DNA of 5,774 bases. It comes from a bacterium (GTDB taxonomy: Bacteria > ARS69). Under the pieces are notes generated by a model that ran no database searches, was not told the DNA's origin, and worked only from the letters and a program-made list of their open reading frames with translations. Location: contig JALGZO010000569.1 of NCBI GenBank assembly GCA_025774865.1, positions 1-5,774 of the forward strand, in the 5' to 3' direction. Below, in pieces: positions 1 through 5,774 of this stretch. The position numbers and the translations under genes are program-made. The first letter of the stretch is position 1. Every line of letters begins with the position of its first letter.

Positions 1-1281
1 CATCTCTCGCTGCAGGGCGATCTGGAGGTGATGGCCGGGAACGGCTTCGTGGTACGCGAGCGCCGCCATGGTGTAGCGCGGGCGGCTCGGAAGGTCGTAC
101 GTGTTGACATAGAAGTAGCCGGGGCGCGAGCCGTCGTCCGGCGGGCCGTAGTAGTACGCGGCCGGCGCCGCCGCCGCCCGGTACGCTTCGATCTCCTTCA
201 GGTCGCACGACGCCTTCGGCAGCGTGCCGAAGAGCTCGGGAAGCCGCCGGTCCATCGTGTCGAGTATCTCGCGGTACTCCTCGAGCAGCGCCTCCGGCGA
301 GTCGTGGTAGAAGATGGGGCTCTCGCGAAGGTGCGCAAAGAACTCGAGAAGATCTCCCGTGAACCCGACCTCCTCACGAATCTGGTTCATCTCGCCGAGA
401 ATGCGTTCTATCTCGCGGAGTCCGATCTCGTGGACCTCCTGCGGCTCGAGATCGGTGGTCGTGTACCGACTCACCTCGAAGGCGTACCATTCCTCCCCCT
501 GGGGCAGCGCGTTGATCCCGGGGACGTCCCGGCACGCCGGCAGGTAGTCCTTCTGGAGGAAGTCCGCGAGCTTTCCGTAGGCGGGAATCACCTGCTCATC
601 GACGGCGAGCTCCACCGCGATGATGATCCGGTCCTTCTCCGCCGGCTCGATCGCGTCGCCGAGGCGATCTCCCACGTCCGCGACGACGTGCTCGGACGCA
701 TGTTGCAGCATCAGCGCGCGAACCTGGGGGATCGCGCGCTCGATCGAGACGCGATACGGGACGATTCCTTCCGCCATCCCCTTGCGCATGTTCGCCATGA
801 TCTGGTCGACCTGCTCGGGGAATGCACGCAGTCGCGCGATATACGCGTCGCAGAACTCGACAGTGTCGAACGGGTGCGACTCGATGATCTGAGGGAACCC
901 GATATGGGGTCCTGATTGCTGACTCATCGGCACGAGGTACCCGCGGAAACGCGCACCCTCGACGCCGCGCTCGAGACCGCGATCGAAGATCTCCACGCTC
1001 ATACGATCCGCGTCGGCGAGAGCGGCCCGATCGATGGCTTGGCTACGGATCAGATACGCTCGCAGCGAGTCGACGTGCGCGAGGTGTGCAGCCTCGGAGA
1101 GGTCTTGGAGGCGATCGCCGTATCGGTGGTCGCCGAGATACGTTGCCCAGGTCGGGTCCCGGCGCATCTGGTACTCCCAGTAGTCGCCGAAGAGCGACGA
1201 AAGATCGTCAGACGGCGCGGCGGCGGCAGATACCGCGGCGAACGCGAGCAGACCGCCGACGAGGGCTCGAATTCCGGGCAC
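1..1281 (-). CDS. Exported DUF885-family putative zinc metallopeptidase (3' end outside window)
   Basis: The first 427 residues are present and the C-terminus lies beyond base 1. Translation starts at GTG (1281-1279), 5 bases after an AGGAGG core. Residues 1-22 form a Sec-type signal peptide: an Arg at position 5, a hydrophobic core (LVGGLLAFAAV) and an Ala-rich cleavage region (SAAAAP), so the mature protein should leave the cytoplasm. Family marks follow in order: DPTWATYLGDHRYGD (about 42-56), PMSQQSGPHIGFPQ (about 118-131), GYFYVNTYD (388-396) and HEAVPGHH (411-418). The last is the DUF885 signature. From family knowledge, DUF885 is placed with gluzincin-like metallopeptidases, with the two motif histidines and a later glutamate as likely zinc ligands; that later region is not in the window. 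Family members are usually about 550-620 residues, so roughly a quarter is missing. Substrate is unknown; peptidase activity is inferred from the motif. It is transcribed divergently from the binding protein, kinase and regulator operon. The family call is secure, the enzymatic role less so. Confidence 0.93.
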   Translation of the reverse strand, partial: MPGIRALVGGLLAFAAVSAAAAPSDDLSSLFGDYWEYQMRRDPTWATYLGDHRYGDRLQDLSEAAHLAHVDSLRAYLIRSQAIDRAALADADRMSVEIFDRGLERGVEGARFRGYLVPMSQQSGPHIGFPQIIESHPFDTVEFCDAYIARLRAFPEQVDQIMANMRKGMAEGIVPYRVSIERAIPQVRALMLQHASEHVVADVGDRLGDAIEPAEKDRIIIAVELAVDEQVIPAYGKLADFLQKDYLPACRDVPGINALPQGEEWYAFEVSRYTTTDLEPQEVHEIGLREIERILGEMNQIREEVGFTGDLLEFFAHLRESPIFYHDSPEALLEEYREILDTMDRRLPELFGTLPKASCDLKEIEAYRAAAAPAAYYYGPPDDGSRPGYFYVNTYDLPSRPRYTMAALAYHEAVPGHHLQIALQREM

Positions 1282-1352: not shown

Positions 1353-2774
1353 ATGCGATTGGGGCATTGTCGATTCGGCCCGGCCGTCGGGGTGGGAGCG
1401 TGCCTCGGCGCCCTCACACTCGGATGCGGCGGGACCGGCCCGCCGCCGGCGGACACCCGGACGGTGGGCGAGACCGACTGCATCGAGATGCCCGGGTTCG
1501 GGGCGGCAAGGACGCGCAGCCTCACGTTCGCGTTGACCGACTGGATCGATCCGGGGCATCTCCCGACACCGCGCAACGAGTCGGAGGCGATTCTGTTCCG
1601 TCACCTCTACGAGACTCCGTTCGAGATCGACTGCCGGGGAGACGTCGCCGAGGGGCTGGTCACAGAGTGGCAGTCCCGCGACGACGGTCGGACCTGGGTC
1701 CTGTACCTGCGTCAAGACGCACGATTCACGGACGGGTCCCCGGTGACGGCGGAGGAAGTCAAGCGTTGCTGGATGCAGACGCGACGGGCGATTCCGGCGG
1801 CGGAGCGGTCCTGGATCTGGGACGTCGTGCGACCGTCTTCGGTGCAGCCCACCGAAGACGGAGGGCTCGTGGTCCAGCTGGACGAAGCCCGGGACCTTCC
1901 CGATCTTCTCGCGCGCCCCGAGTTCTTCGTGTTTCGTGAGGACCCGGAGGGGTGGCCGCTCGGCACCCGCGGGCTACGGGCGGAGACTCGTCCGCAATCC
2001 GGCCGGTCGGGGGTGCATATGGTGACCTGTCACGATTCGACGGACGCGCTCGTCACCACGTTCGAGATCCTGCAAAACGGCGACTCGCGCGACGTCATCG
2101 CGCCCGGAGTCGACGCCGCCGTCGTGCGGGGCCGCGCGGCGCTTCGCTTTCTGGAACGATTCCCGGACGTTCGCCTGACACCGCTGCCCTGGGATCGGCT
2201 CTACTTGCTCCTCTCTCCGCACCGCGATCGCAGATCGGAACTGCCCCCCGAGATCCGGGACGAGCTCGCTCGGGACGTCACGGGCTCTGACGCTCGCGCG
2301 GCAACGTCGTGGCTTCTCGCGCCGCGGTCGATGTCGCCGCCCGCGTGGCCCACGGACGACTTGGTCCTTCCCCCCGGGTCACCCACCGGAGAGATGCGAA
2401 TCGTGATGCCTCGCCGCGACGACGACGCCAGCCGTCTCGCGGAGCGCATCGCATTCCTGTGGACGGAGGCGGACCCATCGATCCCCGTCCGCGTGGCCCC
2501 CCTCGCTCCGCGCGACTTCCGCGATTCCCTCCGCCGAGGCGACGAAGCCGCGTACGTCGTACCGGTCGCCCGTGGCACCGCCGCGGCCGACCTGCAGCTG
2601 CGAGACCTCCTCGATCGCGCGCCGTGGCTCGCCGGCCCGGAGACGATCGTCCCGCTCGTCGAGACTCGTGCACATCTCGTGAGTCGCAAGCAGCTGACCG
2701 GTGTCGTCACCGGCTACGAAGGAACCCCCCTCCTTCAGAGCGCGGGCTGGGCCGGGTCCGGAGACGCGCCATGA
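1353..2774 (+). CDS. Family 5 extracellular solute-binding protein (peptide-type SBP), probable lipoprotein
   Basis: 473 residues from the ATG at 1353. The N-terminus has an Arg at position 2, a hydrophobic stretch and LTLGCGG, with Cys25 the likely lipidation site. The lipobox is imperfect (Thr at -3, Leu at -2). A low-complexity G/P linker follows. The family-5 (DppA/OppA-like) signature is clear at about residues 97-136: VAEGLVTEW, then DDGRTWVLYLR, then FTDGSPVTAEEV. An upstream HLYETPFEIDC segment matches the usual 'YE.L...d' region, and PLGTRG further on resembles the conserved GTGPY turn. The protein is a little shorter than typical family members (about 500-550 residues), and its second half is divergent. 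Proteins of this family capture oligopeptides, nickel, heme or other ligands outside the cytoplasmic membrane and hand them to an ABC permease. No permease or ATPase gene is visible here. Instead the stop codon overlaps the kinase start by 4 bases, suggesting a sensory role. Cys43, Cys94, Cys139 and Cys226 could form disulfides. Ligand unknown. Confidence 0.87.
   Translation: MRLGHCRFGPAVGVGACLGALTLGCGGTGPPPADTRTVGETDCIEMPGFGAARTRSLTFALTDWIDPGHLPTPRNESEAILFRHLYETPFEIDCRGDVAEGLVTEWQSRDDGRTWVLYLRQDARFTDGSPVTAEEVKRCWMQTRRAIPAAERSWIWDVVRPSSVQPTEDGGLVVQLDEARDLPDLLARPEFFVFREDPEGWPLGTRGLRAETRPQSGRSGVHMVTCHDSTDALVTTFEILQNGDSRDVIAPGVDAAVVRGRAALRFLERFPDVRLTPLPWDRLYLLLSPHRDRRSELPPEIRDELARDVTGSDARAATSWLLAPRSMSPPAWPTDDLVLPPGSPTGEMRIVMPRRDDDASRLAERIAFLWTEADPSIPVRVAPLAPRDFRDSLRRGDEAAYVVPVARGTAAADLQLRDLLDRAPWLAGPETIVPLVETRAHLVSRKQLTGVVTGYEGTPLLQSAGWAGSGDAP
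2760..2763 (+). promoter_or_regulatory. Shine-Dalgarno of the histidine kinase gene
   Basis: GGAG inside the 3' end of the binding-protein gene, seven bases before the ATG at 2771. Together with the ATGA overlap it supports 2771 as the true kinase start. The open frame could be extended back to an ATG at 2309, but that would overlap the binding-protein gene by over 450 bases and add an Arg/Pro-rich segment of no domain character. Confidence 0.7.
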
Positions 2775-4477
2775 GCCTCCGGAATCGGCTCTTGCGGTCG
2801 GCGCTCGCGCTCGTGCTCGGACCGCTGCTCGTACTCGTGGTCGTCATCCGCGAGGAGACAGCGAAGCGTTTGGAAAGGGAGTACGTCCGACGCGTGGACT
2901 CGCTCATCGCCGTGATCGAGGGGGATCTGGAAGAGCAGGCGCGGAGACTCGCTGCGCGGCTCACCGCCCTCTCCGAAACCGTCGCGGAAGACGATCGGCT
3001 CCGCCTCGCGCTCGGCGGCGACGATCGATTCCGCGCCTACCGACTGAACTGGGCCGGCCGGGCGGCGACGCTGACCGGACTCGCTCTGCTTCAGCTCCAG
3101 GACGAGACGGGGACGATCCTGAGCTCCGGCCACTTCCGCAACGAGTTCGATCGCGTCGATGCCCAGACGCCTGAGTGGCTGGCTTCCGCGCCGCGCGAGC
3201 TCACGCTCCTCGAGGCGCGCCGGCCCACCGGTCCGTTCTGGGCGCTCGCGCGCGTCGACTCGGTGCGCCTCGCGAACCGCACGCTGCGAGTCGTGGGAGG
3301 CGTCGAGATCGACCGCGGAAAGCTCGCCGCGCTCGCCCCCGACGACGATCTCGTCGTGACACTGGAGCACCCCGGGGGCACGCTTCGTCCCGACGGTGTC
3401 GCCGCCGATCCGCTCACCGCACCCGCCGCGATCGTTCGGGCGCTCCGGTTGCCGGCCCTGCCTCTGAACGCGGCTCCGACCCGACGGGAGGCGCGGTTCG
3501 TCGTGACGCACTCCCTCTCCCCGATGCGCGCGCTCCTGAAAAGCCTCGATGCCTGGCTGTTCGCCGCCTGGGGCCTCGTGGCGCTCGGAACGATCCTCCT
3601 CGCGATCCGCTTCTCCTCGCGCATCGCGCGACCGCTCGAGACGCTTGCCCGCCAGACCGCCTCCCTCGATCTCGACAAGCTCGACGCGGACTTCGATACC
3701 GACCGCCGCGACGAGGTAGGCACCCTCTCCCGGTTCCTCGGTGAGATGACGGTCCGACTTCGTACGAGCGTGTCGCGCCTCCGGGACGCCGAGCGCCGGG
3801 CCACGCTCGGCGACGTCGCCCGGCAAGTGAACCACGACCTGCGCAACGGCTTCACGCCGATCCGGAACGTGGTTCGCCACCTCTCCCAGGTCGCTTCCGA
3901 CTCGCCCCAGGACCTCCCGCGCGTCTTCGACGAGCGGCACGGCACACTCGAATCCGGGCTCACCTATCTGGAGCAGCTCGCGTCCAGCTACTCGCGAATG
4001 TCCCCGGGCCGAAGCCGAGTCCGCTGCGATCTCGGCCACGTCGTCCGCCAAGCCGCGGAAGGGAGAATGGAACGCGACGAAGGTCCCGTCCGGCTGTCGC
4101 TCGCCCCCGACTTGCCCCCGGTGCTCGCGGATCCCGTGGGACTACGGCGAGTCGTCGAGAATCTCCTGGCGAACTCCTGTGAGAGCCTCCGGGGAGCTGG
4201 ATGTGTGCGGGTCGCCACGGAACGGGCGAAGACCGGCACCGGAGATCCGGCCGTCTGCCTGACCGTGGCCGACGACGGCGCCGGGATCCCTCCCGACGAC
4301 CTCGACCGCATCTTCGATCCCTTCTTCACGACGAAAGAGACCGGCGGGCTCGGCCTCTCCATCGTCCGACGCCTCCTCTCCGACTGGGGCGGGACCATCC
4401 GGGTGGAGTCGGAACCGGATCACGGAACCCGGTGTACGGTCGTGCTCCCCGCCGCGATCACGGAGCCGGTGTCGTGA
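2771..4477 (+). CDS. Membrane-bound sensor histidine kinase (HAMP, HisKA-type, HATPase_c)
   Basis: 568 residues. Order of parts: a transmembrane helix at about 7-26; an extracytoplasmic sensor of about 230 residues (28-259) that I cannot assign to a named fold; a second transmembrane helix at about 262-281; a HAMP linker at about 282-334 (ARPLETLA, then RRDEVGTLSRF); and the catalytic core. The H-box is NHDLRNGFTP with the phospho-acceptor at His355. The N-box is NLLANSCESL (464-473), the G1 box is DDGAGIP (501-507), the F-box is FDPFFTTK (515-522) and the G2 box is GGLGL (525-529). The core resembles NtrY/NtrB-like kinases that pair with sigma-54 regulators. It autophosphorylates from ATP and passes the phosphate to a receiver Asp, most likely Asp53 of the next gene product. 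Oddities: Gly replaces the usual Pro after the H-box Asn, and the G2 box is one residue shorter than the common GxGLGL form. Start and stop both overlap neighbouring genes by 4 bases. The kinase call is firm; the stimulus is unknown. Confidence 0.95.
   Translation: MSLRNRLLRSALALVLGPLLVLVVVIREETAKRLEREYVRRVDSLIAVIEGDLEEQARRLAARLTALSETVAEDDRLRLALGGDDRFRAYRLNWAGRAATLTGLALLQLQDETGTILSSGHFRNEFDRVDAQTPEWLASAPRELTLLEARRPTGPFWALARVDSVRLANRTLRVVGGVEIDRGKLAALAPDDDLVVTLEHPGGTLRPDGVAADPLTAPAAIVRALRLPALPLNAAPTRREARFVVTHSLSPMRALLKSLDAWLFAAWGLVALGTILLAIRFSSRIARPLETLARQTASLDLDKLDADFDTDRRDEVGTLSRFLGEMTVRLRTSVSRLRDAERRATLGDVARQVNHDLRNGFTPIRNVVRHLSQVASDSPQDLPRVFDERHGTLESGLTYLEQLASSYSRMSPGRSRVRCDLGHVVRQAAEGRMERDEGPVRLSLAPDLPPVLADPVGLRRVVENLLANSCESLRGAGCVRVATERAKTGTGDPAVCLTVADDGAGIPPDDLDRIFDPFFTTKETGGLGLSIVRRLLSDWGGTIRVESEPDHGTRCTVVLPAAITEPVS
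4462..4465 (+). promoter_or_regulatory. Shine-Dalgarno of the response regulator gene
   Basis: GGAG within the last codons of the kinase gene, eight bases before the GTG at 4474. It supports this GTG as the start, which is also required to keep the first beta strand of the receiver domain (LILVVED). Confidence 0.7.
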
Positions 4478-5774
4478 GCCTCATCCTCGTAGTGGAGGAC
4501 GTGGCGGCGCTCCGTGAGCAGTACGCCTACGACCTCGCCCGCCTCGGCGGACACGAAACGCGAGGGGCGGGAAGCGTCACGGAGGCGCGCGATCGCCTGG
4601 AGACCGACACGTTCGACTGTGTCGTTCTCGATCTGGAGATGCCGGGAGGCGACGGCTTCGAGCTCCTGGAGGTACTCCGGGCGAGGGGCAGCTCGATCCC
4701 GGTGATCGTCTATACCGGAACCGGCGACTACGAGCGCTGCGTGCGGGCGGTGAAACTCGGCGCGTACGGTTTCGTCGACAAGGCGGAACCGATGGAGAAG
4801 GTGCTCCGCGAGATCGACAACGCGATCGATCGATCGCGGCTGCGCGCCGAAGTACAGGAGCTTCAGCGGCGCCTCGACGACGATTCGCCGCTCCTCGGCA
4901 CTTCTCGCGCGATGAACGAGCTGCGCGACACGATCGCACGCCTCGCACCGATCCCGAGCCCCGTCCTCGTCCTGGGCGAAAGCGGGACCGGCAAGGAGCT
5001 CGTCGCGCGGGAGCTCCATCGGCTCGGCCCCGCTTCCGGTCCCTTCCGCGCTCTCAACTGCGCCGCGTTGCCCGAGACCCTCGTCGAGAGCGAGCTGTTC
5101 GGGCACGAGCGCGGGGCGTTCACCGGGGCCGACCGCGCGCGCAAAGGGGCGTTCGAGATGGCGGCGCACGGAACGCTCTTCCTCGACGAGATCGGAGAGC
5201 TCCCCGCTCCGATGCAGGCGAAGCTCCTTCGGGTTCTGGAAGAAGATGTGGTGACGCGAGTCGGCGGCGAACGGGAGATCACGATCGCCGCGAGGGTCGT
5301 CGCCGCCACGAATCGCGACCTGGACGAAGAGGTCGCGGCGTCGCGGTTCCGCGAAGACCTTCTCTTCCGCCTCAATGTGCACGTCATCACCGTGCCCCCG
5401 CTCCGCGAACGGCTCTCGGACGTGCCGGCGCTCGTCGAGCATTTCCTCGCCGCCACCGCGCGGCGCTTCGGGGCTCGGCCGAAGCACGTCGACGCGGACG
5501 TGCTTCGATCCCTGCGATCGTTCGAGTGGCGACGGAACAACGTGCGGGAACTGCGCAACGCGGTCGAGCGCATGATCATCGCGGCCGAAGGCGACACGAT
5601 CGAGTCAGCCGCGATCCCGGTCGAGGTGCGCGGCGCGGTGTCTGCCGCCGGAACGTTGAAGGATCTCAAGGCCGAGGCGGAGCGGCGCATCGTCCTGGCC
5701 GCGCTCGAACGGAACGACTGGCACGTCACGAACACGGCCGCGGATCTCGGACTCGCGGATCACGCGAGCCTCTC
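4474..5774 (+). CDS. NtrC/AtoC-type sigma-54 response regulator (C-terminus outside window)
   Basis: 433 complete codons from a GTG start; the gene continues past the right edge. Receiver domain at 1-120: acidic pair Glu8/Asp9, phospho-acceptor Asp53 in LDLEMPGGDG, Thr81 and Lys103. A short linker helix follows. Sigma-54 AAA+ domain at about 138-370: Walker A GESGTGKE (168-175), the sigma-54-contacting GAFTGA loop (214-219), Walker B GTLFLDEI (233-240), AATNRDL (277-283), the arginine-finger region FREDLLFRL (292-300), and a sensor II region WRRNNVREL (352-360). The start of a Fis-type helix-turn-helix (about 394-433, with NTAADLGLADHASL) is cut by the window end. An intact GAFTGA implies a true activator that remodels RNA polymerase with sigma-54. 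Its start overlaps the kinase stop (GTGA), so the kinase is its probable partner. Unusual points: the conserved lysine is followed by AEP instead of P, and the sensor II WPGNVREL motif is altered and one residue longer. Target promoters are not visible in the window. Confidence 0.95.
   Translation, partial: MSLILVVEDVAALREQYAYDLARLGGHETRGAGSVTEARDRLETDTFDCVVLDLEMPGGDGFELLEVLRARGSSIPVIVYTGTGDYERCVRAVKLGAYGFVDKAEPMEKVLREIDNAIDRSRLRAEVQELQRRLDDDSPLLGTSRAMNELRDTIARLAPIPSPVLVLGESGTGKELVARELHRLGPASGPFRALNCAALPETLVESELFGHERGAFTGADRARKGAFEMAAHGTLFLDEIGELPAPMQAKLLRVLEEDVVTRVGGEREITIAARVVAATNRDLDEEVAASRFREDLLFRLNVHVITVPPLRERLSDVPALVEHFLAATARRFGARPKHVDADVLRSLRSFEWRRNNVRELRNAVERMIIAAEGDTIESAAIPVEVRGAVSAAGTLKDLKAEAERRIVLAALERNDWHVTNTAADLGLADHASL

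Follow-up and report, generated by a model that had tools for sequence, protein, structure and literature searches.

A candidate three-component envelope signalling module built on a family-5-type binding lipoprotein, a sensor kinase and a sigma-54 activator

Genes at the locus and their continuation

The window considered here is a 5774-bp stretch of bacterial DNA that makes up one whole contig (C573) of a 785-contig assembly. It carries three plus-strand genes (Table 1), encoding a lipoprotein derived from a family-5 solute-binding protein (SBP), a histidine kinase and a sigma-54 response regulator, with an overlap of 4 nt at each junction. The features assembled below make it likely that these products, with a tetratricopeptide repeat (TPR) protein encoded further downstream, constitute a dedicated three-component envelope signalling module with its own target gene. 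The binding-protein start is preceded by GGAGG, as read from the sequence. A first-pass annotation of this DNA had described the genes as tightly coupled, and both shared stop/start tetranucleotides that it named, ATGA and GTGA, are present. The overlap between the binding-protein and kinase genes is exactly 4 nt in approximately 42 loci from several phyla, which is nearly all of those in which the kinase start can be placed; because it is kept so widely, the coupling of these genes is not a matter of chance.

The regulator gene runs beyond the end of the window. Contig C496 (L088) was reached by a search of the window's genome for the TPR protein, and its first 111 bases are the last 111 of the window, a stretch found nowhere else in the genome. 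The assignment of C496 as the direct continuation of C573 is based on this overlap in the assembly, and relatives show a consistent gene order. Completed in this way, the regulator comprises 445 amino acids, and is followed on C496 by two minus-strand open reading frames (ORFs), the TPR gene, a DUF5916 gene and a further partial gene. The first minus-strand ORF is GDSL-hydrolase-like (2.1e-7, slightly below the Pfam cut-off), and the second has no Pfam match.

Neither the window nor C496 carries a permease or ATPase gene. All 19 BPD_transp_1 matches in the genome lie on other contigs, and the permeases of the genome's own peptide-type transporters have no homologue in any fetched relative locus. 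The ATP-binding cassette (ABC) permease and ATPase neighbours that are typical, but not universal, for family 5 are absent from the window, its continuation and the relative loci. The earlier remark that no transporter is visible thus extends past base 5774, and the peptide transporter genes downstream of the regulator that had been named as evidence against a sensing role do not occur there, since C496 has no permease or ATPase.

Table 1. Features of the window, of its continuation (L088, contig C496) and of a distant look-alike operon
Feature	Position	Strand	Basis or remark
DUF885 metallopeptidase gene, divergent	1-1281	-	Cut off by contig end
SBP-derived lipoprotein, family 5/cluster C, 473 aa	1353..2774	+	Pfam SBP_bac_5, AlphaFold2 model, fold alignment, invariant Cys
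ATGA, binding-protein stop/kinase start shared	2771..2774	+	Sequence; almost every relative overlaps by the same 4 nt
Membrane sensor histidine kinase, 568 aa	2771..4477	+	Pfam HAMP and HATPase_c; invariant His355; AlphaFold2 model
GTGA, kinase stop/regulator start shared	4474..4477	+	Sequence; kept in most relatives
NtrC-type sigma-54 response regulator	4474..5774, continuing at L088:1-148	+	Pfam; contig overlap
111-bp stretch identical to L088:1-111 (contig C496)	5664..5774	.	Overlap unique in genome
Predicted dyad, window's genome	L088:2247-2262		Sequence GTGACCGGTCGAACAC
Predicted -24/-12 promoter, window's genome	L088:2361-2376		Sequence TGGCCGCCTCCTTGCG
TPR gene	L088:2435-3460		TPR-protein search of genome, Pfam
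DUF5916 gene	within ORF L088:3627-6284		Pfam
Aminicenantes-type operon with M19 dipeptidase upstream	L065:22-5596, L067:8538-14788		Sigma-54 promoter TGGCACGAAATCTGCT in L067

The binding-protein-derived lipoprotein

The signal sequence of the lipoprotein ends, as read from the sequence, in the lipobox LTLGC, with Cys25 encoded at 1425-1427. Its match to SBP_bac_5 scores 46.2 bits (cut-off 32.4) and covers only the N-terminal profile positions 3-99 of 368. The AlphaFold2 model of the protein (predicted local distance difference test score 78, predicted template modelling score 0.77) aligns to family-5 structures of the OppA, NikA, DppA and AgaA type with Z of 22-25 over 371-393 residues (VIA-align). 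The modelled cluster C fold is thus complete, though the N-terminal part alone scores in Pfam, because the model aligns at a Z of about 25 over 376-390 residues to family-5 binding proteins. The lipobox Cys25, along with Cys43 (1479-1481) and Cys94 (1632-1634), is invariant in 43/43 full-length orthologues, a pattern that suggests lipid anchoring and, between Cys43 and Cys94, a disulfide particular to this family. The aspartate that holds the peptide amino group in OppA and DppA is not evident in the lipoprotein when it is profile-aligned to the canonical family-5 proteins of its genome, a comparison that provides weak evidence.

The protein is not uniformly preserved. Eleven fetched relatives (L163-L165, L178-L185) encode a version that is shortened or diverged through the SBP_bac_5 domain, and what remains in these cases is chiefly the C-terminal lobe, at profile positions of about 206-445. 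Six of the eleven were scanned and match no Pfam family. The operon position, the regulator and the TPR gene are kept in these relatives, as is the lipobox in those inspected.

Kinase and regulator

The kinase is composed of a first transmembrane helix, a periplasmic sensor (about residues 31-250, bases 2861-3520), a second transmembrane helix and HAMP, DHp and HATPase regions. Within the NHDLRN box, His355 (3833-3835) is invariant in relatives, as is the N box. In the AlphaFold2 model a long first helix leads to a periplasmic sensor of alpha/beta type, and the second transmembrane helix follows; judged by the order of strands and helices in this model, the sensor looks dCache-like. Fold searches with the whole kinase are dominated by DHp/CA matches to the ZraS, CckA and HK853 structures. 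Two departures from the common layout were observed. At 4340-4360 of the window, the G2 box of the ATP lid reads TGGLGLS against GTGLGL in relatives, a one-residue in-frame deletion that could weaken ATP binding or could be an assembly error. In one Gemmatimonadota group (L052, L053, L055, L057) the HAMP region of the kinase is lost, and the second transmembrane helix joins the His-phosphorylation helix almost directly.

The regulator matches Response_reg, Sigma54_activat, AAA_lid_14 and, in part, HTH_8 of Pfam. It possesses a receiver with Asp53 (4630-4632), an AAA+ domain with a GAFTGA loop (5113-5130) and a conserved Fis-type helix-turn-helix, the combination that defines NtrC-type activators, and is 58-67% identical in relatives.

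Conservation across genomes

A single-protein query of genome contigs gave no match, and relatives were found with an alignment query. By this alignment-based scan the binding protein is present in 4/5 genomes examined of the window's own small phylum, and also in metagenome-assembled genomes of Gemmatimonadetes and Krumholzibacteriota. Among 298 sampled Gemmatimonadota genomes, 80 encode the binding protein at E < 1e-15, with roughly 50 clear orthologues, and 64 encode an orthologue of the kinase. The kinase accompanies the binding protein in 48 of 50 distinct loci and the regulator in 46, while the full series of binding protein, kinase, regulator and TPR protein, in one order and on one strand, is found in 41. 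Seven of the nine incomplete loci stop at a contig edge, including that of the window, whose TPR gene is on C496; the others are L133 (G262), where the regulator is split, and L147, at which no regulator was found. The expectation that the three-gene order would be conserved in relatives is therefore borne out; together with the lack of a permease in these loci, it shows the three genes to be inherited jointly as a conserved unit that has no transporter.

Because the loci are related, such counts exceed the number of independent events, and for the motif analysis below it is the antisense, shuffle, other-spacing and reversed controls that carry the claim.

Individual loci deviate from the common arrangement. 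In G262 (L133/L203) the N-terminal half of the regulator follows the kinase, and the C-terminal half lies, together with the dyads and the TPR gene, at a distance of about 1 Mb, reflecting either an inversion breakpoint or a misassembly. At L058 (13294-15954 and 17697-20258) a long repeat protein is encoded on the opposite strand between kinase and regulator, and the regulator and TPR genes are separated by an S49 peptidase gene.

Enhancer, promoter and target gene

The region between the regulator and TPR genes contains the elements expected of sigma-54-dependent control. A -24/-12 pattern occurs on the sense strand in 38/42 of these regions and on the antisense strand in 2/42 (shuffle mean 3.8, maximum 10). 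This pattern test replaced a generic sigma-54 weight matrix, which is weak for single loci and yields, summed over loci, Fisher values of 1.4e-11 for the sense and 0.89 for the antisense strand. Upstream of the -24/-12 element lies a GTGT-N8-ACAC dyad, matched at ≥7/8 positions in 40/42 regions and perfectly in 35 (shuffle mean 4.2), and far commoner at a spacing of 8 than at other spacings. The dyads frequently occur in two copies about 33 bp apart. They also cluster at this location: of the perfect dyads in 571 kb, 57/67 fall within 11.9 kb of regulator-TPR regions, and whole-genome scans recover tandem dyads in 22/34 genomes, mostly at a single site per genome, against 0 in the reversed control.

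In the window's genome, the dyad lies about 114 bp before the promoter, and the promoter in turn ends 59 bp short of the TPR start (Table 1). Dyads upstream of a -24/-12 promoter are the arrangement anticipated, at the sequence level, for an NtrC-type sigma-54 activator, and a sigma-54 gene was found in all 11 genomes tested, that of the window included. The output through sigma-54 suggested by the first-pass annotation has thereby gained a predicted enhancer, promoter and target gene, as well as the sigma factor itself.

Autoregulation through the dyad was considered and rejected: none of 41 loci has a dyad upstream of the SBP gene, and the module therefore does not appear to control itself by this route. 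Within the window the only dyad match is a chance-level one with 1 mismatch, inside the kinase gene.

A few genomes (G262, G254, G210) contain additional tandem dyads (L202, L204, L206, L207). These precede a BlaI-like/BlaR1 M56 pair, genes for an ankyrin and a beta-lactamase-fold protein, a gene for a secreted-looking protein and one for a small TPR-like lipoprotein. Such genes are possible further members of the regulon, perhaps cell-wall related, and hint at roles in the envelope.

Proposed circuit and alternatives

Taken at the level of sequence, the operon, the lipid-anchor signal, a predicted intact fold, the kinase and regulator motifs, the enhancer, the promoter, the target gene and sigma-54 are all in place for a signalling circuit. 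The lipoprotein, kinase and sigma-54 activator would be made from one message. The lipoprotein most likely docks on the periplasmic sensor domain of the kinase and sets its activity, and since the two-lobed fold is complete in most lineages, the window included, a small extracytoplasmic ligand probably tunes this interaction; a peptide, a muropeptide, a metal chelate or a sugar are all possible. The conserved His and Asp suggest that the kinase phosphorylates the regulator, which would in turn bind one or two of the predicted dyads, as their conserved sequence implies, and activate the -24/-12 promoter driving the gene of the periplasm-facing TPR protein. No transporter would take part locally. 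The direction of control, the contact between lipoprotein and kinase, the ligand, the phosphotransfer and the DNA binding are the steps that we infer.

Several observations weigh against this circuit in its full form. About ten of the relatives described above keep the operon with a lipoprotein that lacks the family-5 domain, and ligand sensing therefore cannot be universal; this argues against presentation of a ligand to the kinase, as proposed in the first-pass annotation, being what the lipoprotein does in every lineage. No conserved ligand-specific neighbour gene occurs among the relative loci. The SBP and the sensor domain co-diverge with a partial Mantel r of 0.40, but the control pair of sensor and regulator does so to a similar degree (0.38), and contact is not proven by this result. 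Retention of the operon with a shortened protein indicates that physical partnership with the kinase may matter more than the ligand, and lobe II and the anchor, being retained throughout, may be what the protein requires for contact with the kinase. It is conceivable, if doubtful, that the one-time binding protein now serves as an accessory lipoprotein of structural or stress-sensing type resembling QseG, which reports the state of the envelope to activate the kinase and in which lobe II and the lipid anchor are what matters, ligand binding being vestigial. In favour of this reading, the SBP is the fastest-evolving member of the module (32-37% identity against 63-68% for the regulator), and QseG, also a lipoprotein, is indispensable to a sigma-54 two-component system encoded with it in one operon. 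Most lineages, that of the window among them, nevertheless keep the whole cluster C fold, which exceeds the needs of a docking scaffold.

Divergence and shortening could also mark a fast-decaying relic, or a lipoprotein adjacent by chance, that is merely carried along and has no signalling role. We hold this to be very improbable given the invariance of the lipobox Cys and the two further Cys in full-length orthologues, the conserved 4-nt overlap, and the co-retention of the kinase in all loci other than the two that stop at a contig edge. An ordinary peptide importer component, serving an unlinked Opp/Dpp permease while the adjacent two-component genes only regulate uptake, is an unlikely account as well. 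Binding proteins can serve unlinked permeases, and the genome does encode other family-5 binding proteins, several on permease-bearing contigs, but the lipoprotein is by far the weakest SBP_bac_5 match of its genome (45.8 against 108-302 bits), the unit stays permease-free across phyla, and the gene behind the linked promoter encodes a TPR protein rather than a transporter.

A tentative evolutionary reading is that a binding protein was captured from transport to become an obligate kinase subunit, shortened and probably ligand-less in some lineages. Gemmatimonadota and neighbouring phyla might then keep the steps of this conversion in one operon, which controls essentially one envelope gene via a dedicated sigma-54 enhancer.

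Comparison with known systems

The first-pass annotation listed TorT/TorS, LuxP/LuxQ and ChvE/VirA as precedents for binding proteins that feed a kinase. None of these has a family-5 protein, as was stated there, yet AioXSR and CBP/ChiS were missing from the list. The implied absence of any family-5 precedent was too strong, as the sensor kinase ChiS of Vibrio is reportedly under the control of CBP, a binding protein of cluster C (family-5 type) (PMC8449061). CBP differs in also serving a chitooligosaccharide ABC importer, and a sigma-54 regulator is not described for it in that paper. In the arsenite-sensing AioX-AioS-AioR system, a binding protein, a kinase and an AtoC/NtrC-type regulator are encoded together, and the output passes through an RpoN promoter preceded by a site for the regulator (PMC5908839). 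The present module resembles AioXSR, and likewise ArxXSR, in its gene set and in a sigma-54-type target promoter, here deduced from sequence. AioX, however, is PhnD-like and its target is arsenite oxidase, whereas here a family-5 protein is paired with a TPR target; the lipoprotein matches SBP_bac_5 only, and no arsenic gene is found among the annotated neighbours of the module loci.

The single operon of QseE-QseG-QseF (GlrK/GlrR) likewise encodes a lipoprotein together with a kinase and its sigma-54 regulator; the site of that regulator is also a dyad (TGTN12ACA), and a main target gene adjoins the operon (PMC6075780). QseG is not a binding protein, and homology to it is not apparent in the lipoprotein, whose only above-cut-off Pfam match is SBP_bac_5; moreover, the QseEGF targets are the small RNA gene glmY and rpoE, and the gene order differs. 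In CuaD-CuaS-CuaR (and XylFII-LytS), a lipoprotein binding protein has its own kinase and regulator, and contact between SBP and sensor has been demonstrated (PMC10384115), but there the SBP is of family 1, the regulator AraC-type and the induced gene set a sugar importer. The PrsK-PrsR-PrsT system of PEP-CTERM regulation comprises a kinase, a sigma-54 regulator and a TPR lipoprotein with a regulator motif and a -24/-12 site (PMC1569441). It includes no binding protein, and the corresponding NCBIfam cut-offs are all missed here (TIGR02916, 71 vs 300 bits; TIGR02915, 333 vs 503; TIGR02917, 86 vs 312).

The design is thus not unprecedented, as AioXSR, CBP/ChiS and QseEGF share its logic; the module departs from each of them in a defining feature, either the sensor protein or the target, but works along the same lines. 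Its novelty lies in joining a sigma-54 system to a cluster C-type protein, in having a dedicated TPR target equipped with an enhancer, in being so widely conserved, and in a binding protein that is reduced by degrees. In the open-licence papers searched, there is no description of this module and no report of a cluster C-type sensor protein for a sigma-54 system. Three-component sensors based on binding proteins have become known one by one, and the present module spans many genera of poorly studied phyla. Its recognisable enhancer, promoter and target gene open the wiring to a direct reporter assay, and the lineages with a shortened binding protein allow the passage from importer subunit to kinase subunit to be addressed by comparison.

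Neighbouring genes and related operons

The DUF885 metallopeptidase gene and the binding-protein gene of the window have a short upstream region in common. Other peptide-themed neighbours are prolyl oligopeptidase (L058, L060), M19 dipeptidase (L064, L065, L067) and, in the L052-L057 group, proline dehydrogenase. A peptide-catabolism neighbourhood as a general pattern was rejected, however, for the upstream genes of other relatives are unrelated (PI-PLC-like, PFK, FBPase, malic enzyme, aminotransferase/APH and RsmB/F).

A distant look-alike in Acidobacteria/Aminicenantes (L064, L065, L067) combines a canonical SBP_bac_5 protein with a kinase. In L065 and L067 the next gene encodes a sigma-54 regulator, after which a near-consensus -24/-12 promoter precedes a gene for a lone receiver. 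The kinase resembles that of the window in its cytoplasmic part only, with matches beginning near residue 264, and the operon may for this reason be an independent assembly. Finally, the window's phylum and Gemmatimonadota both have, close to the module and at one flank of it or the other, a gene for a DUF5916 protein, which is CBM9-like and probably located in the outer membrane (L042:1144-3222 and L055:929-3286, in addition to that on C496).

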